The notes under the pieces: model-generated
What the model was told of the DNA's origin: nothing
Seen by the model: the letters and a program-made list of their open reading frames with translations, nothing else
Database searches by the model: none
Assembly (NCBI GenBank): GCA_010909725.1
Contig: JAACMV010000014.1
Span: 744,001 to 808,000, forward strand
Direction of reading: 5' to 3'
Origin: Picochlorum sp. 'celeri'
Lineage: Eukaryota > Chlorophyta > Trebouxiophyceae
DNA length: 64,000 nucleotides
Shown here: piece after piece, positions 29,449 to 51,363 of the stretch
How positions within the stretch are numbered: position 1 is the first letter of the stretch
Layout: every line of letters begins with the position of its first letter
Made by a program: the position numbers and the translations under genes

Positions 29449-29793
29449 GGTGGACCAGGACCCAGCGTCTACAGAACAATGTTCCAACTTTCAAAACCGA
29501 GGTCGACCGATTGATAACACCCAGTATTTCCTCAATTACTACGCTGTGTGTACTATGTTTTCTTACTTATTTTCCAGTTCGTTTGAAAACAAAATACCAG
29601 AGGAATGGCGTGCTCTGCAGGCGCTCTGTGTCCAGGCAAGATCTTGGCAAGATTATTTTAAAGTATCGTAATACGGAGTTTTGGCAACGGAATTGGTACA
29701 CTGCATCTGTGTTTGTGAAGAACAAGCGTATAAAACGATTACATTGTATTTTATATGGGGATGGCATGGATATCATGAACTGATTGGTCACAG
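29449..29793. promoter_or_regulatory. divergent upstream region between MIC10 and DUS1
   Basis: About 345 bp between divergent starts, AT-rich from 29520 on. Two short plus-strand frames show no domain. No regulatory element was identified. Confidence 0.4.
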
Positions 29794-31173: not shown

Positions 31174-31262
31174 TTGCTATTTTATGTAGAAAATTTATAT
31201 TAGCTGTGTATACAATAGTTATTTTTTAATTCATTACAGATCATCCAGTTCAATATTCAAGT

Positions 31263-32006
31263 CTACAGTGTCATCTGTTGAAGATCGATCAAGCCCGCAC
31301 TCTCCTTTGCGAGCTCAGATATCCCAATTCTCCCTCGCTGCTTGATAAATGCTGCGACACTTTTCATCTCCTCATCAGATATATAAATATATTTACCTCT
31401 ATCGTCCATAATTCCCGTGATTCTCTTGTCACCTTCCAGCTGCTTCACCTTTTCAATCACATCAGCAGTGCGAATTCCAAACTGTGCTGCCATGTCCTCC
31501 AAGGGAACCATCTTCTTCGTCTTGATGTACTCCACCATATTATTTAATAGTTCTTCTCCATCTTCTTTGGAAATAGCTTCTTCTCCAGCCTCCTGCATCG
31601 TAAACATATGCATCCATTTTTCTGCCTCTTCTTGCTCTTTTGCCTCCCTCTCCTGAGCTACACGAAGCATTTCGGCCCGCTGGGCCTCTTCCTGCGCCTC
31701 CCTTTCAGCATCCTTAGCAGCTCTTCTTTGTTCATATGCATCGCGGCGTGAAACTGGTTTCTGCTGCTCCTCCTCCAGTCGAGGCTCCTCCTCCTCCTCT
31801 TCGTCTTCCTCCAGGCCTCGTCGTCTAGCACCACCTCGCCTTCTACGCAGCCCAGCTCTCATTCTATTTGATCTATCAGCTAATTCATTTCTACCTGGTC
31901 CCTGATCAGATTGTAATTCCTCCTGGCTAGAGACACTTCGGGTTGCAACGATTGCAATTACAACCAGCGCAACAAGTGCCACTATAGCGACCACTAAAGG
32001 AATCAT
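31263..32006 (-). CDS. DDRGK1: DDRGK domain-containing protein 1 (UFM1 pathway)
   Basis: A single exon of 247 residues from the ATG before the membrane helix (MIPLVVAIVALVALVVIAIV). An Arg/Glu-rich coiled coil follows, then the winged-helix PCI-like DDRGK domain with the name-giving sequence GIMDDRGKYIYISDEEM. The family protein anchors the UFL1 ligase at the ER for UFMylation of ribosomes and ER-phagy. Length is shorter than animal forms (about 310) because the coiled coil is shorter. It is convergent with DUS1. Confidence 0.95.
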   Translation of the reverse strand: MIPLVVAIVALVALVVIAIVATRSVSSQEELQSDQGPGRNELADRSNRMRAGLRRRRGGARRRGLEEDEEEEEEPRLEEEQQKPVSRRDAYEQRRAAKDAEREAQEEAQRAEMLRVAQEREAKEQEEAEKWMHMFTMQEAGEEAISKEDGEELLNNMVEYIKTKKMVPLEDMAAQFGIRTADVIEKVKQLEGDKRITGIMDDRGKYIYISDEEMKSVAAFIKQRGRIGISELAKESAGLIDLQQMTL

Positions 32007-32384
32007 ATTGTTATTTCTGGTAATTTGTACTAAATAAATACGAACTAAATACAGTGTCCATGGATTACCGCTGTCTGTGTTGATCAAACGATGGGTGCAT
32101 GTTCAAAACAGGGCTGGTGATCTTGTTCATCTGAATCGTTCCGGCCATCCTGAACTATGGCATTCACCTCGATGCCTTTGTTGCCAGTGTCTTATAGTAT
32201 GCACTTGAATCATGCATGGCTGCCACTGTTGTCGCAGAGATTTTCCATATGGAAGTATGCATACTGAGTAGAGTGGTGGATGCTTTACATTTCAACTGTA
32301 TTCCAGAATGTACAAGTTTATTCATTCATACGTACGTATAAATTATTCACTCTTGCCTCCTACCTATCAGATACACTAGGAACA
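32007..32384. other. intergenic region upstream of DDRGK1
   Basis: About 380 bp between two minus-strand genes. It is AT-rich from 32290 on, with no supported ORF or repeat. It should contain the DDRGK1 promoter and the sulfotransferase 3' UTR. Confidence 0.4.
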
Positions 32385-33341
32385 CTATGACACAGTGATA
32401 TTCGAACAGAGATCCTCTTGCTTTAACACGTGTGATGAGATTCCAAAAAGGCAATAGTCAACAGCATAATGTCTCTCAAGGTCCTTCAATTGCTTCTCAG
32501 ATAGATCTGCTGCTGCAAAGGTAAAATTGTGAATTCCATACTCTGAATCTGAACGAGCTCTTGTTTTCTCCGAGGACCAACGAAAATCACAAGTGGTATG
32601 CGAATGACATGCTGAGAGACCCCCACAGAATGCTCTCTTCATCATGCGCCTTGATCGTTCCACAGGACCAATAAAAATCGAATCTAATCTATTCCTAAAA
32701 CTAATACGTGATTTGATGAAGTTAAACTGAGGCATTAGATGAGGATCAGCTTCTTCACCTTGGAGGACTCTTGATATGAAATGATCAAGGTGCTCTTTGG
32801 ATTGGTGTTCAGGCACAGAGGCTCTTCTGCGCTTCATAACTTCATGGTATCCGGATAAAAATCGCTCTATTGGATCTCTATAAAAGCTTATACACAGATA
32901 TTCCTCACATAGTTTCTTCAGATTGTAATGTTGTACTTCATTGTCACCAGTCCAAGCGCTGAAGACTCGAGCAGCCTCATAACCAAATACACGCCTGCAG
33001 TTATCTCTGAGGTTCTGGCCCTCTGAAGTGCCCCAGCTTTTGTAAATATGAATGTACGCGATTCTCAAGGGATCACATAACCAAAGTTCGTCCCATGGAA
33101 ATACATTTCCATGACGAATCTGTGAAGAATCACTCGAAAACTCGGCTTCCAAGGGGTATGGTCGACCACACTCAGAAAGCCTTCTCATGGAACGCCTTAC
33201 GATGCCATGTACACGGATTTGATTATGGCTATTATTTATGAAAACATGCGATAGGAGAAGTGCTGAGAAGAGAAATACAAAGATAATGAGGATGGTTATG
33301 AGTTGGTGCCCGCGGATAGTATCCGAAAGGTACTCGGGCAT
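32385..33341 (-). CDS. Golgi-type membrane sulfotransferase (Sulfotransfer_2-like)
   Basis: A single exon of 318 residues. It has a type II topology: short cytosolic head, one membrane helix (LITILIIFVFLFSALLLSHVF) and a luminal catalytic domain. The PAPS-binding motifs are visible: the 5'-phosphosulfate loop IAYIHIYKSWGTSEGQNLRD and the 3'-phosphate site CISFYRDPIERFLSGYHEVM. Several cysteines in the C-terminal third (CGGLSACHSHTTC) probably form disulfides. Such enzymes sulfate glycans, which suits sulfated cell-surface polysaccharides of algae; the acceptor is unknown. Confidence 0.8.
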   Translation of the reverse strand: MPEYLSDTIRGHQLITILIIFVFLFSALLLSHVFINNSHNQIRVHGIVRRSMRRLSECGRPYPLEAEFSSDSSQIRHGNVFPWDELWLCDPLRIAYIHIYKSWGTSEGQNLRDNCRRVFGYEAARVFSAWTGDNEVQHYNLKKLCEEYLCISFYRDPIERFLSGYHEVMKRRRASVPEHQSKEHLDHFISRVLQGEEADPHLMPQFNFIKSRISFRNRLDSIFIGPVERSRRMMKRAFCGGLSACHSHTTCDFRWSSEKTRARSDSEYGIHNFTFAAADLSEKQLKDLERHYAVDYCLFGISSHVLKQEDLCSNITVS

Positions 33342-33649
33342 CCTCCCCACTATCAACCTATCAGCATGGATTATTATTAGTTATGGACAAAACAATTTGA
33401 AAATAATCGCTCAGCAATGGTGCTTCTCACAGACGAGAAGGTATCCGTGGTCAAACATGGGATTCATCTTTCCCAGGTTCCAGTTGACCTAATCAGGATG
33501 AGTAGGCCGCCTGGCATGAGATTCTCATAAGGTCATGCAACATAACACTGGCCAGCTCGTTATCAATAGTCTACCCCCCGGTAGAATTAAGCTCATTTTG
33601 AACCTTGTTGGGTGACAGATCTGCGTCTGCCAGTCCTGGCCGTGCCAGC

Positions 33650-35302
33650 GTGACGTGTGTTTGGGTGTGTTTGTGGACGGAGCCGTTTGCCCATCTCCGC
33701 CGTTCCCGACGCACCCACGGGGCATACAAATCAAAATAGCCCCAAATCGGTCTCTGGCGACACCTGGCGCCTCCAGTTCTGGGTGCCCAAGGCGCCCGAT
33801 GTGTTCCGACCTGGTCGGGGAAGCTGGGGGAGAAGCTGCTGGCGTGCCCCATCCGACAAGGCCCGTGAGCGGCAGGTGGTGGCCTGTCCCGTGCCAGCCT
33901 GGCAAATTCAAATTTTGAATGTCACCGTGGATGGGCGTGGCCCCGTGCACAAACCAATTACCACGTGGATACTTTCAACCGGAAAAGAAATAATCTTTGA
34001 ATCTTTTGTGGACAGAGACAGGATGAGACGCTGCGTGAAACGAAGTGTGACACATGTGCTGGACGAGGTGCGTTTTTTGGAAAGTTTCGACAGAGGGCAT
34101 GGCATGTGCATCTGCGTGCTCCATATTGTTTGATAAGTATATTGTGATGTTTTGGGCGTGGGTTCGTGGTGGTTTGTGCGGGACTGGTGTGGTGCCTCCT
34201 CGAGGGTGCAGGCCGTTGGGCAGGGCAGGTTGGGAAGGGGGGAAGAAGGGTTGTTGTTAACCGCGGACGTGCTCCCGGGGTCCCCGACGAGTTGCGGTTT
34301 GAACCCACAGGTTGTATGGGGATCGCAGACTGACGCGACGTGGCTGTTTGTGTTGCAGGATACCACCATCATACCATCAGTGAGAACAACAAGGAGGTCG
34401 AGCAAGAGGCAGAGGGTTGCCGAAGCCAGCAGCGAGGATTCTGCCCTCACCTCCTCCATTCTGGTGCCCCACAACGGCGACAAGGCAGCGGTGGATGCGA
34501 CCACAAAGCAGCACGACATGGAGGCAGCCGAGAAGGCAGTGGTGACAGCCCTGGTGCGGTCCACCTGCCCCCAGGACGGTGGCTTGCCCGTGGTGAGCGC
34601 AGGCCGCCCAAGGAGGCTGTCTGCCAGGAGGACCAAGTACGAGTTGAGGGAGGAGGAGGACACGAGGATCGCGTCGGCCGAGGAGCAGCGCTCCCGTCAA
34701 GCATGCGCCACTCGCACCGCAGGCAGCGGTGTGAACCATGCCCAGGTGGTGGCAGCAGCAGAGAGCCTGGTGCTGTTGAAGCACACAGTCCCCTCCAAGC
34801 GGGGATCCAAGCGGGGGTCCAAGGCCAGGTCCAAGGTGCCCGAAACAAGCTCCATGTGGTCCAACCTCGACCTCCTGGCGACGGCTGCCTGCGACATGAG
34901 CGGGGCCCAACGGGCCACCAGGCGTGGGTTGAGGTCCAGATCGTAGGCACCTCCCACAGGCCACCCCCCTGCCCTACGGTCCTTCTGTGGTCTTCTGTGG
35001 ACAAACAGGACGAGATCGAGATGATACATAGTACAGGAGAACATCGAAGGAAGAAGAAATAGAAACTCAACACTGGACCAGAAGAGGAGAATAGTCTGAT
35101 GGAATGATACAGCACTGAAAACTCTTGCACCGTGTGAACATTTGATAGATTTGATAGATTTGATAGATTTGATTGATGGGCCTATTTCTTTGGTCTGTTT
35201 GGTTTTATTTGCTCGTGATGCAATACCGACGTATTGAACACGCATGAATGCTTTATAAAGGTTGAAACCTGTAACAACAAAAACAACAGCAGCAGCAGCA
35301 TC
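33650..35302 (+). repeat. 1.65 kb GC-rich dispersed repeat, copy A
   Basis: This block matches 46842-48487 at roughly 97-98 percent over its whole length, in direct orientation, offset about 13.2 kb. It is clearly more GC-rich than its surroundings. The left edge lies near 33650, where similarity fades in T/G-rich sequence; the right edge is an (AAC)n(AGC)n simple-sequence tail near 35275-35302. Near 35140-35175 it holds a 9 bp GATAGATTT minisatellite, one unit longer than in copy B. No terminal inverted repeats, LTRs or clear target-site duplication were seen. Confidence 0.95.
33657..34946 (+). CDS. two-exon ORF inside repeat copy A, unknown basic protein
   Basis: Exon 1 (33657-34067) and exon 2 (34359-34946) join in phase 0 across a 291 nt GTGCGT-TTGCAG intron to about 332 residues. 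No in-frame ATG lies near the 5' end, so the start is unknown or missing. The first exon reads GDTWRLQFWVPKAPDVF and TWILSTGKEIIFESFV; the second is rich in Arg, Ser, Ala and Thr with basic clusters (RTTRRSSKRQRV, KRGSKRGSKARSK) like a nuclear protein. Compared with copy B, neither exon has an indel in about 1 kb, whereas the intron has four. No known family. A long minus-strand ORF over the same DNA is not frame-conserved. Confidence 0.45.
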
Positions 35303-35413
35303 ACACCACTAGGCCTGCAGGCCAGGGGAAATCTGGCCGTTGGCTCGGTCATGTATCTGTAATTGTCATATAGACATTTTGCATATTACACAAATGTACA
35401 ATTGATTCAAAAT

Positions 35414-36861
35414 TTATCCCACGATGTTTGGCCTGCACTGAGGAGTCAAACAGCTTTGGTCATTGAACATTTGTCCTGTTGTCAACTTATTCTCACAGCA
35501 TTTTCTGCAGTTTTGCTGCGATGCACAGCTTGCTCCAAGCACCGGTGTGGATGGTGACTGACCAAATGGAGAGCATTGTTGTGTCAAGCAAGATGGATCA
35601 TTTCTCCACGTGCCCTGGATAAACTTTCTCTGGCAGCATGACCTGCAATCTGCTGTTGAGCTGCACTGACTGCCGAGTGGAGGTGGACTTGGTGGTGGAC
35701 TAGGCTTTGGTGCTGGGGGTGGAGGCAAAAATGGCGAGCACTGTGGTGTGAAGCATGAAGCATCATTTCTCATTGTTCCTTTGGTAGCCTTTGAGAAACA
35801 GCAATCTCTGCATGCTGGTCCAGTTGATGCACATTCTGCTCCAGGTGTTGGATTAGGCGGTGCCACAAATGGAGAGCATTCATACGTGAAACAGCTCCCA
35901 TCAGAAGTAATGGTTCCCGTGAGAAGTTTCTTCTCACAGCATGATCTGCAATTTGAGGGTCCAGTGGAAGAACATTGTGAGCCCAGTGGACTCGGAGGAG
36001 GAGAGGGGGTCACACATCCTCCGTTACAGCTACAAATCTGACCCACAGATGCCTTCTGAAACACTGGTGCCGTCACCTGCTGCACTGGCTTGGGCGATAT
36101 TTTTGAACACTGACCACCTGACACAGAGCAAGTACCATCACTGTACTGCACCAATGATGGATCACTCGAACTTCCAGAAATGACTAGTCCTTCAGGACCA
36201 CCAATATATATATTAGTGGTCGAGGTCTGAGCAATATTGGCATTCTGCAACACCTGGTTCAAAGAAACAGGCCCTGCACCCTGCTGAGCAGTAACCTGAG
36301 CAGAACCTAGTGCCCCAATGATGCTCAAGGCTCCCGTCGACTGCTGCGAAATCACAGCAAATGAGTTTGAATTATCAAGACCGACAGTAATATCTCCGCT
36401 GTACCCTATGGTCTGGATATTAAGGGCACTCGAGTTGAGCCCACTCACAACAGTCAAAGCACCAGGACCAGACTGTGAAATTGTGTCCAGCACATCAGAT
36501 GGCATCGTCACTTGAATCCCAACAGGAGAAGAGCTCTTAAATATACCAGTGTTCTCAATATTCAAACTTCCATCCTACATAATATGATACAATGGGGTCA
36601 TATTGGCGTCAGAAAGGAATAACACTGATTCTACCCTACCTTGACATAAGCATTCAAGTTCTTCGTCACAGCCGAGTCCCCAACGAACTCAACCGAATAC
36701 TTTGATGGATCAGATGATGGAATAACAGTCACCTGAGCAGGACCACATTGTCTAATGCTGTTAAATGCGTTCAGATTCCAGACCGTGTTCGCAGACACGG
36801 CGCTCACAAAAGCATGCACAAGCATGCATAGCATGAGATATCTTGTCTCTAATAGTCTCAT
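35414..36861 (-). CDS. secreted GIN-like beta-helix protein with four six-cysteine modules (2 exons)
   Basis: Exons 36861-36640 and 36574-35414 join in phase 0 to 460 residues. A signal peptide (MRLLETRYLMLCMLVHAFVS, cleaved near AVSA) is followed by about 200 residues resembling the repetitive beta GIN/DUF2807 fold (FNSIRQCGPAQVTVIPSSDP; GIQVTMPSDVLDTISQSGPG). Then come four cysteine modules of about 40 residues separated by Pro-rich linkers (PPPAPKPSPPPSPPP), each C-x(5-8)-C-x2-CC-x(12-15)-C-x3-C, for example CSSTADCRSCCQRKF. Pro-rich linkers suggest a cell-wall or extracellular matrix protein. A second gene at 60900-61695 carries the same modules. Confidence 0.8.
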
Positions 36862-37111
36862 TTTTAAACCCTTCACATATAAACACAGTGAAAAGATTAG
36901 AAATGATGAAAAAGTCTTACAAGCATGTGTGGATAGATTCCATCTAAAAGACAAAAGGCCGCGTTGTCCCATCCAAGAAATGACACTCTCTCAGAAACCT
37001 GTGCCACCACCAGGAAACTCAATGGCTTTGACGCTTTTGCCCTTGCATGGCATTCTGAAAACAAAGAAACGAAATTATTTTGAATATATAGATGATTAGA
37101 GTGTGTTTATT

Positions 37112-38802
37112 ATGCCTTTGATACTCGAGCCGTTCTCAACAGTGTTTTCAATTTCTGATTATCAATGCCAGTCCACTAGTTCCACTACAGACGAGTCAAA
37201 TGAGGAAGAAGCAGCACACATTGGTGCATCTATTAGCGAGGAAATCTCCTCTTTGACTCTGGATGCATATGATGCGCCTGGAGCTGAATCGACACGTTCA
37301 AATGACGATGCGTTGGAGCCATGTGCCGGCAGGAAAACCTGTGTGACGTGCGGTATAGTAGCTTTTGAAGATGATTTAGAGCAAAGAATTCATTTTAAGA
37401 CTGATTGGCATCGATTTAATGTGAAGTTGAGGGCACTGAACAAAAAGCCAGTGCTGAAGGAGGAGGATTTCAATGCTCTGGTTGAGCAAGGAGGAGGAGG
37501 CTTGGATGATGACGTTGGTTCTATATCAGGTAGTGATGACGACGTATCTGATGATGATGATGAATTGGATAGGGTGCAAGACGCCAGTCTGTTGGCTCCA
37601 TATATTACATTTCGAGTCAGGAGTATACGTGATGGTACAACAGAGTGTAGGCTGGCAGTCTGGAAGTGCTTGCTCATGCCATCGTCATCTCGAGGCGACC
37701 ATGCGAAGAACTTGGATCCTATAGAATGTGTACAGAGACTTGTGGGGATGAAGAAAGAGGCACAGCAATGGGCTGTGATTATGTTCCAAGGAGGTCATTT
37801 TGCAGCATGTGTGTACTCTATTGAGAGCCCGTCTGAAAATGTATTGCAACGCACTGATAAAGCGAGTCACGAGATTGCTGAACTTTCTATGACGGAAATT
37901 GCACACAAATCATTTCATAGATATGTTGTTAGGGCAAAAGCAGGAGGTAAACAATCTGATAAGGATGCTACAGGTAAAGTTGCAAAATCTGCTGGATCTC
38001 GATTGAGGAGGTATAATGAGGCCATGCTGAACAGGCAAGTTGTGGAGACGTTGGACGCGTGGAAAGATAATCTTTCGAACTGCAATTTGATTTTTGTATC
38101 GTGTCCTGGTTCAAATAGACTGGTACTTTTTGGTGGAGATGCACCCCCTTTGGACAAGAATGATGAGAGGATTCGAAAGGTCCCCTTTATGACTCGGCGT
38201 CCTACGATTTCAGAAACTAAACGAGTGGTCCGTACGTTGCTTACAATGTACAAGTATACTCCCAATCAAATTCATCGGGAAGACAAAGTCGAACGAAAAG
38301 AGGAACATGTTGAATCTCACAAGCCTGACACGGAGGAGCGCCGGAGGGCTGAAAAGTTGGAGCTTCAAAAGCAGCAGCTCATGGCTCAAGAGAGAAATAA
38401 GAAGAAGAAGGAAAGAAGAAAGGAACAAAAACGTGCATCAAGGATGAAGGAAACTCAACTAAAAGAGGGAGAGGGCACGAAGGAAAAAGGAGAAGAAGAG
38501 CCAAAGGCTGATAGCTTGGATGCAGCATTGAAAAGTCTCGCTGCTGCCGCGTCCGAGTCGACCATGAAAAGGTATGATGTACAGTTATGTTCTTTTGTGA
38601 GATTTAAGTACTCCATACTATTATTATCTATCTACCCTGCAGATCAATGGCAGATCAAAAGAAGCCCCCTCAATCAAAAGAAAAGGCACGTTCAAAGAAA
38701 AACTCAGAAAGTATTGCGACGAGACGAGAAAAGCTAGCAGCTGCGGCAGAAGCTCGAGCGAAAGCTTTAGCAGCAGCTTCATCAAGTCAAAAGCTGTGGT
38801 AA
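37112..38802 (+). CDS. VMS1: Vms1/ANKZF1-type peptidyl-tRNA hydrolase of ribosome quality control (2 exons)
   Basis: Exons 37112-38571 and 38643-38802 join in phase to 539 residues. An N-terminal C2H2 finger (CVTCGIVAFEDDLEQRIHF, ending in His) binds the 60S subunit. The catalytic release-factor-like domain follows with the Gln-containing loop RAKAGGKQSDKD and the GSxxRRxNE-type signature SAGSRLRRYNEAML. A C-terminal helix reads RREKLAAAAEAR, an exact fit to the p97/Cdc48-binding VIM consensus RX5AAX2R. The enzyme frees nascent chains from tRNA on stalled 60S subunits. Ankyrin repeats are absent. A GTAAGC just at the stop could be a donor to a further exon; the simple end is preferred. Confidence 0.92.
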
Positions 38803-39001
38803 GCCGAGTATGTGTCATGCATGCAGGTGGACGATGGCATGACGTTGATCCATGTCATTGTCAGGATGTCAGCCATTCTCGGAGCAGGCCTCCTCGTCTT
38901 GACAACAATTCGTCAAAAATATTGAACAGTACTTACGTACATCTCGGATATTTAAATTATAAAAGACTCTATCCAGCATCAGAAGTTGAATCGAGGGTAC
39001 T

Positions 39002-39970
39002 CTAGTCAGCTTTTGGCCCACCTTCTCCACGCTGTTGAATCCATTCCTCAGTCCCAGTTGTCCTCCCTGGCAGATTTGCCTCACTATCCCTCGTCTCGCG
39101 CACCATGGATAGTCGATCCTTCTCATCCTGTCTCTCTAGAATCTTTATTTCATCATGGGAGTATCCTTCCCGCAGAACTCGCGTGTATACATCGCAGCAT
39201 ATTGCCGCCACAGCATTCTCTTCATCTGTTCGAGTTACATACCGCCGTGTTACATCTGCCACAGTATCAAGATCAACACCCACACACAGGTCTACTTTCT
39301 TCCCCCATCCCTCTTCATACAACAATGGCTTGTCTACAATCCCTTCACAGGGATCCACATGAACCCAAACACCTTCTTCCTGTAACAAGACTTCATTCCA
39401 CACATGATCTTTAAAATCCACAACCAATCGAACCTTATATCCCGTAGCCCTGCAACAAAGTCCAAAGCAATTGGACCATTCCCCACAGCGTCCCTTCTTT
39501 GTTTCAAGTAACTTTGTCGCATCATTGTACCGAGGAAACCTGATTGCATTTCCACACATGCCACATTGATACAGCTCTGTCCTGCTTGCACCACCATCAT
39601 GCTGCTCTTCCACTGATGCTGGCACCACGCCCTTCAACGATGTCGAACCCATACAGTAGTCACACGCAGGTGCATTCACCCACTGGAAAAATTCCCGTTT
39701 AAACCATCCACACAGTTCCTCTAGCAAGGACCTTTCCTCAGTCAACCCTTGACCCTCTTTCGAAAGGGTACTCACGCGCTCATACGCCTTTCTATTCAAC
39801 TCATCAATTGGGATTAAACTCAATGCTATACCAACCGCATCCTCGTATGCAGCCACCTTGCGTAATCCATCGTCGATGGCTCTTCGCAAAGCAACACATT
39901 CCTGCTGAATTCCCAAGGCAACGAGTTCCTGCCCTGCTATTTCAATCTGAGCATTCTTCTTCACATTCAT
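39002..39970 (-). CDS. PNG1: peptide:N-glycanase (PNGase, NGLY1/PNG1 type)
   Basis: A single exon of 322 residues with the transglutaminase-like fold. A zinc site comes from two CxxC pairs (CDYCMGS and CGMCGN). The catalytic triad is visible: Cys in KKGRCGEWSNCF, His in FKDHVWNEV and Asp in VHVDPCEG. It removes N-glycans from misfolded glycoproteins during ER-associated degradation. There is no PUB or PAW domain, as in yeast and plant forms. It is convergent with the Vms1 gene 200 bp away; both enzymes work with p97/Cdc48. Confidence 0.95.
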   Translation of the reverse strand: MNVKKNAQIEIAGQELVALGIQQECVALRRAIDDGLRKVAAYEDAVGIALSLIPIDELNRKAYERVSTLSKEGQGLTEERSLLEELCGWFKREFFQWVNAPACDYCMGSTSLKGVVPASVEEQHDGGASRTELYQCGMCGNAIRFPRYNDATKLLETKKGRCGEWSNCFGLCCRATGYKVRLVVDFKDHVWNEVLLQEEGVWVHVDPCEGIVDKPLLYEEGWGKKVDLCVGVDLDTVADVTRRYVTRTDEENAVAAICCDVYTRVLREGYSHDEIKILERQDEKDRLSMVRETRDSEANLPGRTTGTEEWIQQRGEGGPKAD

Positions 39971-39989
39971 AATTATTACAATAAAGAAA

Positions 39990-41342
39990 TTAATGGTGGT
40001 GTGCGTCGAGAAAAGCAGTACCGAGGTGATGCATGGTCACCTCACCTGAGGTCACCTCACCCAACTCTTCCAAAGATTCAACCACTTTGATCTTTCTTCC
40101 AGCTTTCTTCGATACAAACGGCCTCATAAACGCTAAAATAGCTTTTAAGAATCTAGAAGGTCTGACGAGGATGACATACTGTACATTCTTCCTGAAAGGT
40201 CTTGGCAGTGTCTGATACGCCCCCATGATCCAAAATGTGGGAAGCTTGGCCTTTTCTGCCGTAAACACAATCACATAATCCCCAGCAGACACAACTGGCT
40301 CCAAGTGGGTCTTCACATATGTCAATGCAGACGATTTCATTCGAGGAGGCACAGCATCAGCATCCAACACAATCACAGGCCTCCCCAATGCATCAATGCC
40401 TTCTTCATACACCAATCCTTTGAATGTCGACTCCCACTCCTCGCCCATATCAACAACTCTCCTCGTATGACTGGCCACCGTCGCACCAGCAATATCCCCA
40501 GCGGCGGCAGCATCATCATCATCTTTGGCATGATTTGTATCCTCTTTGGCATCCCCTCCATCCTCAGTATCTTTGGCATCATCAATCTGAAGATTCTGAG
40601 CACCCTCCTCTGCAGATATAGCCACTATATCATCACGCAGTTCCTCCTCCTCGTGATCATCATCACGCAGTTCCTCTTGTTCCTCCTCCTCCTCCTGCAG
40701 TGCATGGGCTGTCCCTGCCAATGACCGAGGACTCGTCACCGACGGCGATGGACACGCAGATGAACCAGCTGGTATAGAATCCGCCGTCATCCTCCTCTCA
40801 TCCTGAGACATGACCACCATGCGAACCTCCACCCGCCCTCCCACCACCCCAACCCTCACATCAACATGTTCCTCCTCCTCCCCCTCCTCCTCTTCTTCCC
40901 GCACAAACGACGACGGTGCCGCATCCAACGATCCTCGCTCACCAATCGCATCCTCCTCTTCAATCATCACCCCAGACACCCCCATCTCCTCATACACAGA
41001 CTTGTCATCCTTCTCAGCATTCATGGAACTGGCTATAGACCTCTGATCAAAATCCCCCCTCTTCTTCACCCCAGCCCAATGAAGAGAATCCAAACCAGGT
41101 GCACTGTAATCCTGATTTGCAAATGGCTTATCACCCTGTTCCGCCGGATCCATTGTCGATACCTCCGTGTCCGTCCCAATCGTAGACACCCGCGGTGACA
41201 TGGCAACCTCAGAATTCACACCACCAATAACATTCAGACTACCAGTGCTTTTCATATTGTCCTCCAGAGTCCCTTCTTCTTCCTGCTGCTGCTGCCCAAC
41301 GTGATCTCCGTCATTTGTCGCGTTCGAGGTTGTATGACTCAT
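39990..41342 (-). CDS. CRAL-TRIO (Sec14-like, CRAL_TRIO_2) protein with long acidic N-terminus
   Basis: A single exon of 450 residues. The first 290 residues are low-complexity and acidic (Glu/Asp/Gln runs). The C-terminal 155 residues form a compact CRAL-TRIO_2 domain like those of GDAP2 and RhoGAP1-type proteins: YEEGIDALGRPVIVLDADAV, GDYVIVFTAEKAKLPTFWIM and VQYVILVRPSRFLKAILAFM, ending with KIKVVESLEELGEV. Such domains bind lipids or small hydrophobic ligands. No membrane anchor. Its 3' end lies 20 bp upstream of the PNGase start on the same strand. Confidence 0.82.
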   Translation of the reverse strand: MSHTTSNATNDGDHVGQQQQEEEGTLEDNMKSTGSLNVIGGVNSEVAMSPRVSTIGTDTEVSTMDPAEQGDKPFANQDYSAPGLDSLHWAGVKKRGDFDQRSIASSMNAEKDDKSVYEEMGVSGVMIEEEDAIGERGSLDAAPSSFVREEEEEGEEEEHVDVRVGVVGGRVEVRMVVMSQDERRMTADSIPAGSSACPSPSVTSPRSLAGTAHALQEEEEEQEELRDDDHEEEELRDDIVAISAEEGAQNLQIDDAKDTEDGGDAKEDTNHAKDDDDAAAAGDIAGATVASHTRRVVDMGEEWESTFKGLVYEEGIDALGRPVIVLDADAVPPRMKSSALTYVKTHLEPVVSAGDYVIVFTAEKAKLPTFWIMGAYQTLPRPFRKNVQYVILVRPSRFLKAILAFMRPFVSKKAGRKIKVVESLEELGEVTSGEVTMHHLGTAFLDAHHH

Positions 41343-41573
41343 ATCGGCTACTATCAACAACAATTAGTGCTATATAAATACAATGAAAGGGATATATGAA
41401 TTACTATCGCACCCCAGTGGGCCATCCAAACAGAAACCATCCAACGACTGAGAGAGTTCCCAGGCCCTTCTCCATGCCAGAGTAGTACGACGACTTGGCG
41501 CAAAGATAGAACAAGTATTACATCATTCCCAATACCTATATACTATATATATCAGAAGAACAGGAAAATATGC

Positions 41574-41966
41574 TTACTTCTTCTTTCCCTGCTGCTGCTT
41601 CTTCTTCCCAGCAGCCTTGGCTGCTGCCAACTCCTTGGCCTTTTGCAGCTTGAGCACCTTCTTCACAATCTTCTGCTCCTCCACAAGGAATGCACGAACA
41701 ATCCTCTCCCTCACAACTCCAGCAGCCAAGTGCCCTCCATACGCACGATGCACCGTCTTGTTCTTCTTGCTAATCTTTTTCAATGTATTTGGACGCACAG
41801 CTGGCAATCCATGAAGACGCTGACCAGACACTGGGCAGGTTGGGTGTGACACCTTTTTCTTTAAAGTCAAATACTGCAATTTCCCTCCTGGAGTCCTCAC
41901 AATTCTCTGCTTATTCGACTTGGTCGCGTAGCTATGCCTACGGCGATAGGTCAGTCTCTGAACCAT
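41574..41966 (-). CDS. RPL34: cytosolic 60S ribosomal protein eL34
   Basis: A single exon of 130 residues. It begins [20 protein letters not shown] and contains [30 protein letters not shown] and [20 protein letters not shown], all diagnostic. The tail is Lys/Gln-rich. It is a eukaryote/archaea-specific component of the large subunit. No intron is seen, unlike many ribosomal protein genes. Confidence 0.97.
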
Positions 41967-42699
41967 GGTGCTCTCTGTATCCTCTCAATATATACCTGCA
42001 TAGACACATATAATGTTATTTATAAATATATTGGCATCAGATCGGCGCCTATTCATGGGAGGGCAGTATAGCATAGAAGAGGCCAATGGCGTCGCCGTCA
42101 CCCCCATGGTTCTTTCCCATACACGCGAGTCCCTTTGGAATCATGAATGCCTGGATTTCATCAACATACCTTTATATGTATATATATTGTTCTATGGAGT
42201 GGCATGCGTCGAATATTCTTCTTCTTTCATGATGGACGAATGGGTCCCTTGCTGGCGTCGTCGCCTGCGAGGAGGGGACGGTTCTCCATCCATGGCGATG
42301 GGGAGTCTCAATCGATCAATTGACATTGGACAAAGTAATTCGGTGAACATGTTCTTCTTCTGTTCATTCAGTCTCTGACGATGCCATCTCGTCTTTTATA
42401 CACTGGATGGAATCTCATGGTAGTTGGGAAGTCATCCTGGTGTTCGTTGGACGTCTGGAGTGGAGGTCGGTGCGTCATTCAGAGAGAGGGAGGTGAGTGT
42501 GCATGACCTTGGTTGGTCAAAATTCTTCTCTCTACTAAGACATACTGCCTCCTTCCCCTACTGATAGTACAAAATAATGGCAGAATGTATATGAGATTTG
42601 ATAAACTAGTCTTTAATAATGACGAGAAACGGACGTGCGTGTCTCGGTGTTTTCTGTTGAAAATTCAACCGAGTGCAGACAGGGTTTGTGTCATGGCGT
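41967..42699. other. intergenic region upstream of eL34 and of the large membrane protein gene
   Basis: About 730 bp between divergent genes, containing both promoters. A 121-codon plus-strand frame (42013-42378) has no domain and no plausible context. TATA-like AT runs occur near 41990-42025 and 42178-42190. No repeat or RNA gene recognised. Confidence 0.45.
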
Positions 42700-44850
42700 A
42701 TGAGTAGAATGGTCAGAAATTTAATAATTAGGACACATGAGAGGGAGAGTTCTGGTGCTGTTGGGAAGAATTCTCCCTCTTCTATGATGAATCCAAAGGA
42801 ATCTTTCATTGTCGACGAGACCAGGCGTGTCTCGAATGAGCAAAGGAGGGGTGATTGTCATCGCCGTAGCAGCAGTAGTAGTAGTAGCTGTTGTGAGGAT
42901 GCTGCTATGAATGGTGGTGGCCTGGGGAGTTCGTCAGTTGTACGACTGTCGAGTCTGTGTGTTGGGATGTGGAAGAGTAGGAGACATGCGTCTCTGTGGA
43001 TGATTATCGCGCCGAAGAGGGACGCGTTTGTGTTTGTTGTGGAGCATGAAGAGGTGGATATTGGTTCCGGGGTGTTGAGGCAGCTTGGGGCGGAGAGTCC
43101 GTTTGCTTCATCAAAAAAGACGCGCGGGACTCGGTCTGTGATGCATGGGGTGAAAGATGAAGGGCGTGGCGATGGCATGTCTGTTGCATTCGAAGTGGGG
43201 TTTGATAGTGTGATGGGAGTTGATTATAGTAATCCTCTTGTTCGGAAAGGGAGGATGGTGGTGGAGGCATGTCATGTTGCGAAGAAGGAGTTTCCAAGTA
43301 TGGATGATGTGTTGATGTATTATTATTGCTGTGATGAGGAGAAGCTCGCGACTCGCAAGTGTTCTTGTAGTGTCAATGGAGAGGAGACGCATTCATGTCG
43401 CGATACGGATGTCGAACGGGATAGTATGCGGAAGAGTTTGTTGTCGTCCATGGATACAGTGGCGGATGATGTGTCCTTTGAATTTGATACTGTGTGCGAT
43501 CCACATGCATACAGAGATACAGTTAATAATAATAATAAAGAAGAAGAAGAGGTACAAAGCGGCAAAACGACTCTTGGGATGGAGAAGAATGGGACACATT
43601 CCATGGTGACGATGGACAAGATGCAAGTACGTGAGGGTTTCAGGAATCCTGCTAACAAGGACGATGTGAAAGAGCGAGTGGTCGAGGAGTATGATACGCC
43701 TGTCAAAGTATACTCGTTTCGATCGATTTCTATTGAATGGACTGATGTTCATGTGCCTTGTGCACTATTGCCAGTGTTCGAAAAGGACGAGAGATTGTTG
43801 AAAATGTATGAGAGTGGTCTTCCGACATGGGCCAAGCTGCTTCCTGCGTATGGCTTCTATTATAGGCCATGGTTGAGGTCTTTGACGTGGATTTTATTTT
43901 ATTTATTCTCCATATTTTCATTGGCTGTGGGTTTCTGGGACTTGTACAAGACATTGCCTGGGTTGCAAGAAATGCTTGCCAAGGTTGTAGGATCGTTGTG
44001 GTTGCCACCGACAGCGGTACTGCAGTGGATCGAGGAGCACGCTCAGATCCGATTGTCTATTCTTTTGACATATCTGTTTGGGAAGAGTGAGATATTTTTA
44101 TTCGTGATGAAACATGCTGGACCTTGGTGGAGGAGTGTGTGTGCATTGGTGGAACCTTTGTACGGCAGTACCATGGGTCCTATACTGCTATTTGTGAAAG
44201 TTACTGGATTTCAGGTGGTTCAGTTGACATATAGTGTTGCGAACAGTACGGTAGTTCCTGTCGCAGTGTTCCTTAGAAATGCATGTGGAGTGGTTTTGAC
44301 CCCACTGTTGTTGCTATGGCGATTGGTAAAGCAATCATGGTCTGCATTATCGCTGATATGTGCTACATTCTTTTCTTCTGGATCGGGGTCGACGGCAGTC
44401 ACAGGTGGCTGGCTGTTTTGGGCATTGCCTGCAGAGGCTGTGCGGGCATCATTGGTTCGATCTCTCCGGGCTTTAAATGCTGTGTGGAAGTTTACCGTCA
44501 ATGTTTGCAACGGAATATCGAGGCATCGCCTGACCCTTTCGAGACGTTTTCGTCGATGGAGGATTAGATGTACAGATCAGTTGTCTCGCATTGCCATGAT
44601 CCTGTTTTGGAAGATTGTCGACTTTTTCATGGGCGTGTATGACTACTTGCCCCGCTCCTCTCCATCCAGGGCTTCGAGTGTTCAAGAGCATGGGAAGGAT
44701 TCTTTTGAAGAATCGTGTACGCCTCCTCGTACTTCTGTGACGACTGTCGAACAGTCAAGTCTCTCTTTTTCAAATGCATTTATGAGCGAACATGGCCTTC
44801 GGCAACGACAAGCATTGGAAGATACTGCCGAATCAAAGATTAGATCATAA
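42700..44850 (+). CDS. conserved green-lineage multi-helix membrane protein of unknown function
   Basis: A single exon of 716 residues from the first in-frame ATG. The N-terminal half is hydrophilic, Ser-rich and acidic. The conserved block is LPTWAKLLPAYGFYYRPWLR followed by helix SLTWILFYLFSIFSLAVGFW, a signature I know from uncharacterised plant membrane proteins. At least three more hydrophobic segments follow (ILLTYLFGKSEIFLFVMKHA, MGPILLFVKVTGFQVVQLTY, VAVFLRNACGVVLTPLLLLW), then a basic, Ser-rich tail. No catalytic motif. Function and membrane are unknown. Confidence 0.7.
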   Translation: MSRMVRNLIIRTHERESSGAVGKNSPSSMMNPKESFIVDETRRVSNEQRRGDCHRRSSSSSSSCCEDAAMNGGGLGSSSVVRLSSLCVGMWKSRRHASLWMIIAPKRDAFVFVVEHEEVDIGSGVLRQLGAESPFASSKKTRGTRSVMHGVKDEGRGDGMSVAFEVGFDSVMGVDYSNPLVRKGRMVVEACHVAKKEFPSMDDVLMYYYCCDEEKLATRKCSCSVNGEETHSCRDTDVERDSMRKSLLSSMDTVADDVSFEFDTVCDPHAYRDTVNNNNKEEEEVQSGKTTLGMEKNGTHSMVTMDKMQVREGFRNPANKDDVKERVVEEYDTPVKVYSFRSISIEWTDVHVPCALLPVFEKDERLLKMYESGLPTWAKLLPAYGFYYRPWLRSLTWILFYLFSIFSLAVGFWDLYKTLPGLQEMLAKVVGSLWLPPTAVLQWIEEHAQIRLSILLTYLFGKSEIFLFVMKHAGPWWRSVCALVEPLYGSTMGPILLFVKVTGFQVVQLTYSVANSTVVPVAVFLRNACGVVLTPLLLLWRLVKQSWSALSLICATFFSSGSGSTAVTGGWLFWALPAEAVRASLVRSLRALNAVWKFTVNVCNGISRHRLTLSRRFRRWRIRCTDQLSRIAMILFWKIVDFFMGVYDYLPRSSPSRASSVQEHGKDSFEESCTPPRTSVTTVEQSSLSFSNAFMSEHGLRQRQALEDTAESKIRS

Positions 44851-45311
44851 GACTGCATATGTCACCCTTATTCTGCTTTAGTTTTCGTTATGTAATATCG
44901 TGATTGAGTGAAGCAGTCTTGACTTCAAGTTCAAAGTTTAAAAGCGTAAAAATTCAAATATTGTCTGACCTTTTTTTGCAGGCTGAAATGCTTCTGTTTC
45001 TTCCCATGGTCTCCAGTCGTACAATAAATTTATATTTGATTATATACATCTGCTTTGGAGCGACTATTGTGGGTGCGAGCGTCAAAAAGCGCTCGATACT
45101 ACAACGCAACAACTAATTTGAACTGTTGTTTACCATCGTTGTTAAACTTTTTTAGTCAAAGCCTGGGTGAAATTCGAATTTCAGTTTGACCGTCCATGGA
45201 ACGTCCTACTGCAGCAAGAATCTCCCTGTGTAATGTAGATTTGTAAATTACATATAAATTATAAATACATTATATCGTGTATTGGTGCCAATACGTCGTA
45301 GGAGAATAGAG
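44851..45311. other. intergenic region, no supported gene
   Basis: About 460 AT-rich bp between two plus-strand genes. A 70-codon hydrophobic frame (44904-45116) lacks an ATG and a clear splice context. It should contain the promoter of the FkbM-like gene. Nothing else recognised. Confidence 0.4.
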
Positions 45312-46441
45312 ATGAAAGCACTTGCAAGCAGAGAAGGAGGTGCAGCCGTGTCGGTCAAGTATGGCCTAGTAATGGGTTGCACATGCATCATTCTGCTTTT
45401 ATTTATACGAAAAAATCTTGACATGGGTGTACAGGTGGATCATCCTGAAGCGAGTGAGATCCAACGTGTGCCCAAGGTTGGAGGTCCTCTGAAGTTTGTC
45501 CAATATCGGCCCTCCAAAATTGAACAAGAATGGTATGAAAAAAGGTGGGTATATGAGAGAACTCCATCTGAAATCTGCAAAGATTTGGGCTACCACACTG
45601 AAAAAATGCGTTCTTGGATTGATTTCTTGGACCATGGGGACCATGACCATGGGGATGACTTTGACAGTGATGTATTTTCTCAATTAGTTTTTGAAGACAA
45701 GAATGGAAATGAGCATACAAAGATTATTGAGCCATTGATAGGACATTTTCGCCACCCTTTTGCACTGCCCAACTGTAAGCCAGAAGGCAATGCAGTACAG
45801 ACACAAGATAGGTCTTATATTGCTTTTGGTGGAGCCTGCAGAGTGGACGATTCCTTTTACCCAGGAAAACGGTATCTATTTGATTTGGGAACTGCAGCGT
45901 TTTCGACATCGTTACAGTATTTATCTCTCGATACTCTGGGCTCGGCATTGAGTTTGACAGCATTTGGGCTTGGGAGGCAGAACAAATGCCCAACTACTGG
46001 GACTCTGTTCCACATGATGTTCAGGGGAAACTTCATTTCTACAACCAGGCCATCTCGTCGGATCTCACTTCCCCATCCCATCCATTGAAAATACTCAAAA
46101 CAATATACCAACCGGGGGATTTCGTGGTACGTTGGACAGCAGTTCTTGTTGGATTATATGCGTATTGCCAATTGATCCTGCTACAATTATATACCTCCTC
46201 CTTCCTGGTACAGGTTTTAAAGTTAGACATTGACAATACCCCATTAGAAATGTCCATCATGGACGAAGTTGAAAGGGATGACGCCCTGAGAAATATGATT
46301 TCTGATTTTATGTTTGAACTGCACTACAACTCCACTGACATGCAGGTACATTTTGGCAGTCCAAATATGTCATATGCTGAGGCCCTCATGACGCTTCGAA
46401 GATTCAGAGAGCTTGGGGTTCCCTTGCACTACTGGCCATAA
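45312..46441 (+). CDS. membrane-anchored FkbM-like methyltransferase, reading frame broken
   Basis: The protein starts with a type II anchor (YGLVMGCTCIILLLFI). A luminal domain follows with a SAM-binding-like strand (RYLFDLGTAAF), then, one frame back, GIEFDSIWAWEAEQMPNYW and, across an 87 nt intron (46127-46213), GDFVVLKLDIDNTPLEMSI and FELHYN, ending with LHYWP. The first part is read in one frame up to about 45918 and the rest only in the minus-one frame from 45920. No intron fits the switch. It is therefore a sequencing indel, a programmed minus-one shift or a recent pseudogene. The 87 nt intron is a multiple of three without stops. FkbM relatives methylate sugars or glycans. Confidence 0.65.
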
Positions 46442-46841
46442 TCGACCATGCAAAGGACGTCTAAAACAGTAATATTTCTGATATGACAGCTCACGCAAGG
46501 CTGCAGAGCAGAACATGAGGCATCTGTGAATAATAGGCTTAGACCCATGTAGAATGTAAGATAGGCTGTGCATCTTGAAAAGCAAAGATACGGCTCAGAC
46601 TTGAATGCAAGTATCATCTGCAAAACACAAGCCTCTCGTGAGGTCGAATACCAGCACTAATGCTAACCTTGTGTGACGAAAGCAGCACACCAATCTGGAC
46701 AGCATCTGGTCGAATTACCTCAACGCTTTCCATGTGTACCGAACCACAGAGTCCGATCAGAAAGCTAGGAATTGACTCCTGATGTAATATCAGTATAATA
46801 ACACGACCTCTTCACTTCAATCCGCAACAGCCATCGCGTTG
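46442..46841. other. intergenic region left of repeat copy B
   Basis: About 400 bp with short frames only and no domain. It contains the 3' UTR of the methyltransferase gene and the left flank of the repeat. This flank shares no extended similarity with the left flank of copy A, so the two insertions are independent sites. Confidence 0.4.
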
Positions 46842-48487
46842 CCAGTGTTTTTTTGTGTGTGTTTGTGGACGGAGCCGTTTGCCCATCTCCGCCGGTCCCG
46901 ACGCACCCACGGGGCATACAAATCAAAATAGCCCCAAATGGGTCTCTGGCGACACCTGGCGCCTCCAGTTCTGGGTGCCCAAGGCGCCCGATGTGTTCCG
47001 ACCTGGTCGGGGAAGCTGGGGCAGAAGCTGCTGGCGTGCCCCATCCGACAAGGCCTGTGAGCGGCAGGTGGTGGCCTGTCCCGTGCCAGCCTGGCAAATT
47101 CAAATTTTGAATGTCACCGTGGATGGGCGTGGCCCCGTGCACAAACCAATTACCACGTGGATACTTTCAACCGGAAAAGAAATAATCTTTGAATCTTTTG
47201 TGAACAGAGACAGGATGAGACGCTGCGTGAAACGAAGTGTGACACATGTGCTGCACGAGGTGCGTTTTTTGGAAAGTTTCGACAGAGGGCATGGCATGTG
47301 CATCTGCGTGCTCCATATTGTTTGATAAGTATATTGTGATGTTTTGGGTGTGGGTTCGTGGTGGTTTGTGCGGGGGCCGGTGTGGTGCCTCCTCGCGGGT
47401 GCAGGCCGTTGGGCAGGGCAGGTTGGGAGAGGGGGGGAAGAAGGGTTGTTGTTAACCGCGGACGTGCCGGGGTCCCCGACGAGTTGCTGTTTGAACCCAC
47501 AGGTTGTATGGGGGTCGCAGACGGCGCCGACTGACGCGACGTGGCTGTTTGTGTTGCAGGATACCACCACCATACCATCAGTGAGGACAACAAGGAGGTC
47601 GAGCAAGAGGCAGAGGGTTGCCCAAGCCAGCAGCGAGGATTCTGCCCTCACCTCCTCCATTCTGGTGCCCCACAACGGCGACAAGGCAGCGGTGGATGCG
47701 ACCACAAGGCAGCACGACATGGAGGCAGCCGAGAATGCAGTGGTGACAGCCTTGGTGCGGTCCACCTGCCCCCAGGAAGGTGGCTTGCCCGTGGTGAGCG
47801 CAGGCCGCCCAAGGAGGCTGTCTGCCAGGAGGACCAAGTACGAGTTGAGGGAGGAGGAGGACACGAGGATCGCGTCGGCCGAGGAGCAGCGCTCCCGTCA
47901 AGCATGTGCCACTCGCACCGCAGGCAGTGGTGTGAACCATGCCCAGGTGGTGGCAGCAGCAAAGAGCCTGGTGCTGTTGAAGCACACAGTCCCCTCCAAG
48001 CGGGGATCCAAGCGGGGGTCCAAGGCCAGGTCCACGGTGCCCGAAACAAGCTCCATGTGGTCCAACCTCGACCTCCTGGCGACGGCTGCCTGCGACATGA
48101 ACGGGACCCAACGGGCCACCAGGCGTGGGTTGAGGTCCAGATCGTAGGCACCTCCCACAGGCCACCCCCCCCTGCCCTACGGTCCTTCTGTGGTCTTCTG
48201 TGGACAAACAGGACAAGATCGAGATGATACACAGTACAGGAGAACATCGAAGGAAGGAGAAATAGAAACTCAACACTGGACCAGAAGAGGAGAATAGTCT
48301 GATGGAATGATACAGCACTGAAAACTCTTGCACCGTGTGAACATTTGATAGATTTGATAGATTTGATTGATGGGCGTATTTCTTTGGTCTGTTTGGTTTT
48401 ATTTGCTCGTGATGCAATACCGACGTATTGAACACGCATGAATGCTTTACAAAGGTTGAAACCTGTAACAACAACAGCAGCAGCATT
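46842..48487 (+). repeat. 1.65 kb GC-rich dispersed repeat, copy B
   Basis: It matches copy A in direct orientation. The offset is 13192 bp at the left, 13201 bp in exon 2 and 13194 bp at the right end, so net indels lie in the intron and the 3' part. It ends in an (AAC)n(AGC)n tail at about 48468-48487 and lies 26 bp from the NOP2 stop codon. It is GC-rich relative to its flanks. Confidence 0.95.
46855..48147 (+). CDS. two-exon ORF inside repeat copy B, unknown basic protein
   Basis: Exons 46855-47259 and 47560-48147 mirror copy A, with the same GTGCGT donor and TTGCAG acceptor; the intron is 300 nt. The product is about 330 residues and differs from copy A by around 14 substitutions (for example ATTRQHD for ATTKQHD and STVPETSS for SKVPETSS), with about five silent changes. 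No ATG is present at the 5' end. The high share of replacement changes argues against strong protein constraint, while the lack of exon indels argues for some. Confidence 0.4.
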
Positions 48488-48512
48488 ACATGCCACCATA
48501 CTGAGCATTGTA

Positions 48513-51148
48513 TCATTGCTTTTTGGCCTTCTTTGACCTCTTGGTCTTTTTCGGTTTTGCATTCTTCTTTTCTTCCATTTCAGCTTGCAACTCTTGCAAT
48601 GCCTTTTTATAAATACCTCGGACCCGTTTTTTCTTTTTTTGAACTTCGTCTGCGTGAGGTGGCTGAGATTGACTTGAATGAATTTCTTGTTTATCATCAT
48701 TGTGTTCATTCTCTCGTATCAACTCTTTCGTCTTCGTTTTCTTCCGTTTTTTCTGTTGAGTAGGGGCAACTGCATCTTCAAGAATATGTGATTTAAAAGA
48801 CTCTCGCTGGATGTCTTGCTGTTCTTCTTCCTCGCCACTTTCCTCCTCTTGGCTATCCTGATCGACTGGTTTATTGATGACATCATTAGATACCTTCTTC
48901 AATTTGCACACAAAAAATCCTGAAATAGTAAGATATGAAATATGTTAATAGAAACGATTTGCGTGGCATTAATTATGATCAGAAAAAAACGGAAACATCA
49001 AGCACTCTGTATAAATCCACAGTCTCCTCACAATCATTCAGAAGCAGAACTGACTTATAGGAGTTGTTTCGTCATCGTGCTTGTATCAGTTAGACACGAA
49101 AGCATGTGTCAATTAAGTGGTAATCTTTACGTACCGTCCAAGTTATGTGCATGGGGATAAAATCTGCGAGCCTCTTGGATGGATGGATGGAATCTGAATT
49201 CTCTGTACCGAATGAACCCAGGCCTACCAAAATCCAATCCACATGGAACAACTTTCACGTTTCTCTTTCTCAGAGCATATTGTATCACATTTTCATTTTC
49301 CTCCACCATCATGGAGCATGTTGAATATGTCACATACCCACCAGTCTTGGATTTTGCATCGACAAGGTCAATGGCTGCGAGCAACAATTGCTTCTGCAAA
49401 TGGGCACACTTCCAAATCTCATCTTGGGATTTCGACGACTTGACTGATGGATCTTTTGATATAACACCGGTTCCAGAGCATGGAGCATCCAGTAAGACCC
49501 TATCAGCAGAAAACTCTCCCAAGACCTTTGGTAGTTGCCTTCCATCATAGTTGCAAATAATAGCATTGTTGACCCCCATCCTTTGGATATTCGCCTTCAA
49601 GGACTTGAGTCTATCTACATTGATTTCATTTGCTATGAGAGTTCCTGTATTCCTCATGAGTGCAGCTAGATAGGTGGTTTTTCCTCCTGGGGCAGCAGCC
49701 ATGTCAACCACCTTTTCACCTTCCTGCGGTGCAAGGGTCATCACTGGGAGAAATGATGAGGCGCCTTGAAGCATATAATGTCCAGCCATATACTCTGGAG
49801 TTGCTCCTATGGGAACTTGGGAGTCATATACAACGAGTCCTACTTTCGACCAAGGGCCAATTGGATCCAAATTCACTCCTCTATTGATTAAAGATGCTGC
49901 CAATTCCCGACGCCTGGATTTGAGAGTATTGACACGAATAGTCACAGGTCGAGGCACTTCACATGCTTCAATCAGCTCCAACGCCTCTGCTACAGTAAAT
50001 AAACTCAGCATGGTTTCTACCATGAAGTCATTATATCCATAGTATGTGCAAATGTCGCTTTTGAGTTGAGAAATGTAATCTTGACGTGATCTTCCAGGTT
50101 CTCGCAGTCTTTTAAAATCATCCAAAACCCTCACAATATCTCGAACTCGACGTTGGACCATGGCAAGGTCAGGCGCTGCTAACATTTCAGATTCAATTTG
50201 CTGACCACTTGGCAGCGTGATGACCTCAACATCTTGGATATTTGTCTCCATTGCATCATCTCTAGCCATGAAAGCTGCCTCTTCTTCCGCCTCCTCTCTC
50301 TCAAGCCTCTCTGCTTCATCTAATTCTCTAGCTTCCCTTTCAATATCCATCTCTTCCTCGTCGCTATCCTCATCGCTATCTTCATCGCTATCCTCATCGT
50401 TATCCTCCTCTTCCTCACTGCTTTCAGCAGAGGAATCAAAGAGGTCCTGTTTCTGTACTCTTGTGTCCTCCTCCTCCGCGCCGTCGTCATCATCGTCGTC
50501 GTCGCTATCTTCCTCTCCCTCTTCTTCCTCGTCGTCGTCGCTGCTCTCATCATTTCCAATGTCATGGCTCACACCATCACCCTCCTCTTCACTAGATTCA
50601 CTACTACCAACATCAGAGGATTCCTCCTCCTCCTCCTCCTCCTCACTCGATGATTCAATCTCCTCCTCCTCTCTCTCCTTCTTCTTCGCATTCTTTGATG
50701 AAGATTTAGGTGTCAGCCAACTCCTATTATGGTCCGTAAATCCCCCCTTCTTTGACCTCTGCTTCCCTCCAGGACCCTACACCACAACGGCATACACTCA
50801 ATCCCTCACCATAACTCCACACCATCTCCCTCAGAAACCCAGAAACATACCTTTTTAACAACTATCGTATCCATCTCCCTTTCAACCGGACTCTTTCCAC
50901 TACATATAACAAACACAGCACTCGTGTCACATCGCATGCAAGACATGCTCTCACCCCCAACAGGATACCTTCACATTCCCTCATCCCTTACCACATCCAA
51001 TGCATTAAGTAATTAGAATTACATATAAAGAAAATTCCAAAGCAGCATCTCACCTTTTCCTTGTTGCGGCTGCATCCCCTCCTCCATTCTTTTTCAAGAC
51101 GTTCCCATCCCGCTCAGGAGTGTACCGATTTTTCCTCGTACGAACCAT
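48513..51148 (-). CDS. NOP2: 25S rRNA cytosine-C5 methyltransferase NOP2 (4 exons)
   Basis: Exons 51148-51054, 50899-50851, 50776-49135 and 48919-48513 join in phase to 730 residues. A basic head and a long acidic Ser/Glu/Asp region precede the NSUN-family catalytic domain: SAM loop [39 protein letters not shown] and the second catalytic cysteine in [14 protein letters not shown]. The last splice rebuilds [17 protein letters not shown], a family hallmark, followed by a Lys-rich nucleolar tail. It methylates 25S rRNA and is needed for 60S assembly. Introns are 154, 74 and 215 nt. Confidence 0.95.
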
Positions 51149-51363
51149 GATGAATTATACTCAAATATTAAATGAAAATTTCATCAGTATGGATGCTCAA
51201 CGTCAACACCATGCAGATGCACAGGGGACAGCAACGTATTTAATTCCGAAAGTCAGAATAACAAAATTTGATTCTCTTTGAGAACTGATCAAACCGTATG
51301 GTCATACACAGAACCAAATTGAATGCATATTCATATCAAAAATTCTTTTTATACTTGATTACC

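Follow-up and report, generated by a model that had tools for sequence, protein, structure and literature searches.

A local gene pair so far seen only in Picochlorum, probably kept alike by gene conversion and occasional unequal crossing-over

We have identified in Picochlorum celeri a small two-exon gene that is present as two direct copies about 13 kb apart, and this arrangement probably represents an old, Picochlorum-only local gene pair whose members are kept alike by gene conversion together with occasional unequal crossing-over. The window, that is, the whole stretch of DNA analysed, covers 64,000 nucleotides of contig C14 (C14:744001-808000), and the assembly in which we searched for further copies comprises 27,412,692 bases in 30 contigs. 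The P. celeri genome has been described as a phased diploid of 27.43 Mb with two sets of 15 scaffolds and 46% GC (PMC7225527), which allows both haplotypes of the locus to be compared.

The first-pass annotation of this DNA described two direct repeats of about 1.65 kb with 97-98% identity, and our alignment bears this out: the two units, designated copy A and copy B (Table 1), are 98.1% identical, with 31 substitutions over 1603 ungapped columns and six indels. C14 is collinear with C18 at 98.9% identity in a comparison that covered 104 kb of C14, and the two are therefore taken as homologous chromosomes. The C14 haplotype carries one A and one B; the C18 haplotype carries A1 and A2 in tandem, separated by 157 bp, and one B. 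Copy A of C14 is nearest to A2 (8 differences over 1606 positions, compared with 17 differences from A1), and the sequence common to the A1/A2 tandem starts some 60 bp farther upstream than the part held in common with B. On the simplest reading, the tandem copy would have been gained or lost via unequal crossing-over. The flanks of A and B are unlike each other on both haplotypes, so that the pair amounts to a gene-sized duplication, and the simple segmental duplication that the earlier annotation had envisaged for a genome with only two copies and shared flanks is not what we find.

Table 1. Positions of the two copies and their gene features, counted from the first nucleotide of the window
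Feature	Position	Strand	Basis
Copy A, whole duplicated unit (gene with its 5' and 3' regions)	33655..35291	+	Direct repeat with copy B; whole-genome matches
Copy A exon 1, 15 codons from ATG	34023..34067	+	Sequence; BPE23 and P. renovo models begin with this peptide, except D/H at residue 14
Copy A intron, 291 nt, GTGCGT...TTGCAG	34068..34358	+	Sequence; lengths, indels
Copy A exon 2 with stop, GC3 0.795	34359..34946	+	Sequence
Candidate polyadenylation signal TGTAA of copy A, followed by AAC/AGC tail	35270..35274	+	Chlamydomonas analogy
Copy B, whole duplicated unit	46847..48485	+	Direct repeat with copy A; whole-genome matches
Copy B exon 1	47215..47259	+	Sequence; C18 allele one base short here
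Copy B intron, 300 nt	47260..47559	+	Sequence
Copy B exon 2 with stop, GC3 0.779	47560..48147	+	Sequence
Candidate polyadenylation signal TGTAA of copy B	48464..48468	+	Sequence; Chlamydomonas analogy

It had been suggested that the repeats belong to a young mobile or 5'-truncated family, and the copy count across the assembly lends this no support. DNA searches, whose counts are lower bounds, were run with the entire unit and separately with its 5' and 3' parts; each query returned the same places, at least five in number, all at this locus or on its C18 homologue, and none revealed a truncated copy elsewhere in the assembly. On this copy number, the reading as a mobile family, whether dispersed or truncated, was rejected. 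It is also very improbable that a transposon or retrotransposon brought the unit to this place, or that it is a captured gene, ending in a simple-repeat tail. The gene-sized units with their unshared flanks, the AAC/AGC tail and an 8-bp direct repeat flanking one copy of a sister pair, described below, are compatible with such a history; against it, the intron is present in all five copies found and has not been lost as in retrocopies, the edges of A or B share no direct word as long as 6 bp that might represent a target-site duplication, and the product has no Pfam match that would point to a transposase or reverse transcriptase. The stated lack of terminal inverted repeats is supported for lengths from 40 bp upwards, as a search of the window for inverted repeats of this size found none.

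Both direct copies carry the host-like, spliceable two-exon gene that had been proposed, with the donor GTGCGT and the acceptor TTGCAG in phase 0. The exons have no indel between the window copies, as had been stated, but their length is 633 nt including the stop codon and not about 1 kb; the intron has the two lengths reported previously (Table 1) and differs between copies by four indels. The predicted product is a basic protein of 210 residues, with a pI of 10.5 (A) or 11.1 (B). Searches of Pfam, NCBIfam, PHROGs and PDB sequences gave nothing for it at E 0.1 or better. An AlphaFold2 model of the product (P0002) was poor, with a mean pLDDT of 54.8, and we base no claim on it; it matched no fold at E 0.001. 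The product may be a small basic protein that is mostly disordered and perhaps nuclear, for which several copies could serve dosage. The element ATTTTGAAT, which we take to resemble cell-cycle promoter motifs, lies upstream of the gene in both subfamilies, at window positions 33912 and 47104 and in the sister units on C27 and C15. No known RNA was detected in the window by Rfam at gathering scores.

The AAC/AGC simple tail noted at the end of the repeats is present and directly follows TGTAA. In Chlamydomonas, TGTAA has been described as the main polyadenylation signal, which precedes the site by 14 nt on average, although in the same paper it was near only 12 of 26 recorded poly-A tails (PMC3439250). 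Since the tail comes after this candidate signal, we read it as the end of the transcription unit, and by analogy with Chlamydomonas it probably marks the end of the transcript region rather than a retroposon tail. The duplicated unit would then span the gene from its promoter region to its polyadenylation site.

Searching the translated exons against protein databases recovered 14 relatives, namely three from Picochlorum sp. BPE23, four labelled Picre1 and seven unnamed metagenome proteins, in a profile search that scored only the 7990 candidates sharing most words. We take the labels Picre1 and NNA to denote P. renovo. The best named matches are BPE23 M9434_000203 and M9434_000205 (92% over 100% of the query), so that two copies are annotated in BPE23, likewise here; the Picre1-labelled matches include NNA_003740 and NNA_003750, together with NNA_007037 and NNA_007040, three tags apart, which are relatives of the type found on C27. 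The window protein is 84% identical to P0004 over 93% of the query and 69% identical to P0006 over 82%, and conservation between the relatives occurs in blocks, with a conserved core RRTKY..R.EEDTR. No SENEW3 protein was among the 14 relatives, and a SENEW3-type label (Picsp_1) does occur in the database. Judged from these protein comparisons, the gene family appears so far to have been seen only in Picochlorum. Within the open-access literature searched, full text gave no paper on Picochlorum with concerted evolution, and the listings named nothing on this gene family. A viral origin was considered and rejected, as 16 viral-contig stretches fit a pattern and none was confirmed as a relative.

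The models of the BPE23 protein (207 residues) and of P. renovo join the exon-1 peptide to the start of exon 2 at the junction predicted for P. celeri, and the exon-1 peptide differs from theirs only by D/H at residue 14. Both annotations were made with RNA reads (PMC9615354, PMC6811619). The P. renovo gene models leave the frame in mid-protein. Among the surroundings of the pair, the neighbouring ORF at 42661-44847, used to look for synteny, had 42 matches among the 7998 scored candidates with the most words in common, none of them named BPE23 or P. renovo, and the window ORF at 37100-38734 gave a strong match (E 4.7e-51) to Pfam bVLRF1, which is described as a Bacteroidetes release factor and is found here in a green alga.

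When A and B are compared with BPE23 203 and 205, 20 gap-free variable protein sites are obtained, six of which are of species type, none of paralogue type and 14 private; a 3-residue gap is common to 203 and 205. Species-type sharing of this sort fits either conversion or independent duplications. Under the reading that we consider probable, the pairs would predate the split of the compared Picochlorum species, gene conversion would keep the copies within one genome alike, and occasional unequal crossing-over would have left A single on C14 and in tandem on C18; conversion of the window pair appears supported by comparison across species. The alternative is that the gene was duplicated anew, and recently, in each Picochlorum lineage, giving the species grouping without conversion. 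We regard this as unlikely, although the same site pattern (6 of 20 species-type, none paralogue-type) agrees with it and so does the spacing in BPE23, where the tags are nearer each other than in P. renovo. With 8902 genes in 14.4 Mb for P. renovo (PMC6811619) and 7216 genes in 14.8 Mb for BPE23, the ten tags between 003740 and 003750 correspond to about 16 kb, near the 13 kb observed here, whereas tags 203 and 205 imply about 4 kb, both distances being estimates from tag numbers only; the BPE23 spacing therefore fits the P. celeri arrangement poorly. On the other side, independent duplication would have to occur locally and repeatedly in both subfamilies, the P. renovo tags, which lie 10 and 3 apart, are spaced much like the P. 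celeri copies in both subfamilies, and the sister pair on C27 and C15 shows conversion directly.

Within P. celeri, A and B are distinguished on both haplotypes at 25 of the 43 gap-free variable sites, and recent conversion between the two is therefore unsupported; these sites are also what would be expected from a simple duplication older than the haplotypes. At the other sites, A1 equals A2 against A and B (four), A1 equals B against A and A2 (three), or the state is private (11), and the test for haplotype-specific cis-sharing in the window pair over the 43 sites was negative. The two B alleles differ by no substitutions and four single-base indels. Their near-identity is no evidence for conversion because it is part of a longer region in which heterozygosity is low: the haplotypes differ by only 11 mismatches in the 33 tiles of 500 bp of window 36501-53000, compared with 26 mismatches in the 11 tiles of window 28001-33500. 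The very low haplotype difference of the former stretch is as would be seen after loss of heterozygosity.

The clearest trace of conversion comes from a diverged subfamily on C27 and C15, whose product has 30-39% identity to the window protein over part of its length. This paralogue is a local direct pair too, with units of 1.27 kb that are 3.8 kb apart. Of its 42 gap-free variable sites, eight are cis-shared, none is allele-shared, one is crossed, 32 are private and one is multi-state; in addition, a TG repeat is shortest in both C27 copies. Five of the eight cis-shared sites fall within 36 columns and adjoin one repeat indel, and the eight sites may therefore represent about four events. Pairwise divergence is 0.87% between C27_1 and C27_2 and 2.03% between C15_1 and C15_2, and between alleles it is 2.36% (C27_1 and C15_1) and 1.75% (C27_2 and C15_2), so that cis copies are closer than trans copies for the C27 pair only. 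Such haplotype-specific sharing is a mark of gene conversion, and it is the most useful new point of this analysis. The 8-mer AATTCAAA lies at both edges of C27_2 (C27:585655-586921) and is also found in the C15 allele, which may reflect microhomology or a target-site duplication; an 8-bp edge repeat has a chance of 0.0033 for a random pair of 20-mers, and four copies were examined. Between the C27-type copies there is also a 148-bp repeat pair with 82% identity (C27:585026-585338 and C15:582379-582691).

A second copy, the A1/A2 tandem or the cis-sharing could in principle be an artefact of assembly or phasing caused by misplaced long reads. Two points agree with such an artefact: the assembly was polished with PacBio reads only (PMC7225527), and single-base indels account for all four differences between the B alleles. 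The C18 B allele (C18:767137-768768) has a 1-nt deletion in exon 1, which may likewise be an error in view of the long-read-only polishing, or else a true loss of frame. An artefact is nevertheless very unlikely, as the flanks of A differ from those of B on each haplotype, two copies are annotated in BPE23 and in P. renovo as well, and the mean read insert of 6.4 kb (PMC7225527) exceeds the 1.6-kb unit.

The copies had been described as far more GC-rich than their flanks, which holds except for the final ~330 bp. In copy A, GC is 0.58 in the 5' part, 0.53 in exon 1, 0.57 in the intron and 0.645 in exon 2, and falls at the stop codon to 0.43 in the 3' part, which is duplicated yet not GC-rich. 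Over 104 kb scanned in 600-bp windows with a step of 100, GC reached 0.60 or more in ten windows, all ten inside the two copies. The GC3 of exon 2 in both copies (Table 1) exceeds that of 35 predicted ORFs of at least 300 aa in the same 104 kb (median 0.431, maximum 0.52). Histone H3, RbcS and LHC genes, sampled as 13 stretches that include several copies or alleles of each other, also have a raised GC3 of 0.51-0.71; these control genes are presumably strongly expressed. Because they too are raised, codon choice may give part of the GC bias, with GC-biased conversion giving the rest, and the high GC might thus combine the codon bias of a strongly expressed gene with GC-biased conversion. As the sole cause, GC-biased conversion would not predict the drop at the stop codon, and the C27-type CDS has a lower GC3 of 0.608, though conversion is clearest there. 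The high GC is real and incompletely explained. A more far-reaching account is possible but doubtful, in which two diverged Picochlorum-only members have each been held as a close direct pair by conversion through speciation, on both haplotypes, and GC-biased repair has raised coding GC3 to about 0.8 for one of the pairs, against a genome-wide GC of 46%.

An excess of replacement over silent changes between the copies (about 14 to 5) had also been reported. Our recount gives 10 replacement and four silent changes, and the resulting pN/pS of 0.85 is indistinguishable from neutral (p = 0.76); the values for A1-B and A2-B are 0.56 and 0.93. Positive selection between A and B was therefore dropped.

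Gene pairs shaped by duplication and conversion are of an ordinary kind; here they belong to a family known to date only from Picochlorum. As in duplicate genes described under concerted evolution (PMC3924837), the copies are alike within a genome, few in number and share species-type sites, and the haplotype-specific sharing of that system is matched by the C27/C15 sister pair; the window pair differs in being incompletely homogenised, given its 25 A-versus-B sites on both haplotypes. X-chromosome palindromes with GC-biased gene conversion (PMC8981503) are likewise near-identical duplicates with raised GC, but the window copies lose GC at the stop codon despite their duplicated 3' part. Within P. 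celeri itself, the histone H3 genes resemble the window gene in being multicopy with a GC3 raised to 0.579, although they encode a conserved, known protein, lie on several chromosomes and have a lower GC3, whereas the window gene is a local pair. Three histone H3 genes (C14:447085, C15:59080 and C2:168366) are identical over 378 bp, and such identity on different chromosomes hints at interchromosomal homogenisation. The neighbouring LHC genes at C11:682198 and C11:683609, which differ at 2 of 504 bases, are another near-identical local pair.

In summary, the mobile-element reading of these repeats gives way to a lineage-restricted gene family that forms two pairs of copies in a phased diploid alga and bears traces of conversion. 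Where a sexual cycle is concerned, a study of Picochlorum sp. SENEW3 leaves meiosis undecided (PMC11092101), and P. renovo has been reported to carry a spo11-2 homologue (PMC6811619). The pairs would allow conversion, copy-number change and GC bias to be measured and, if our reading is true, they would be natural recorders of conversion in algae of uncertain sexual cycle.
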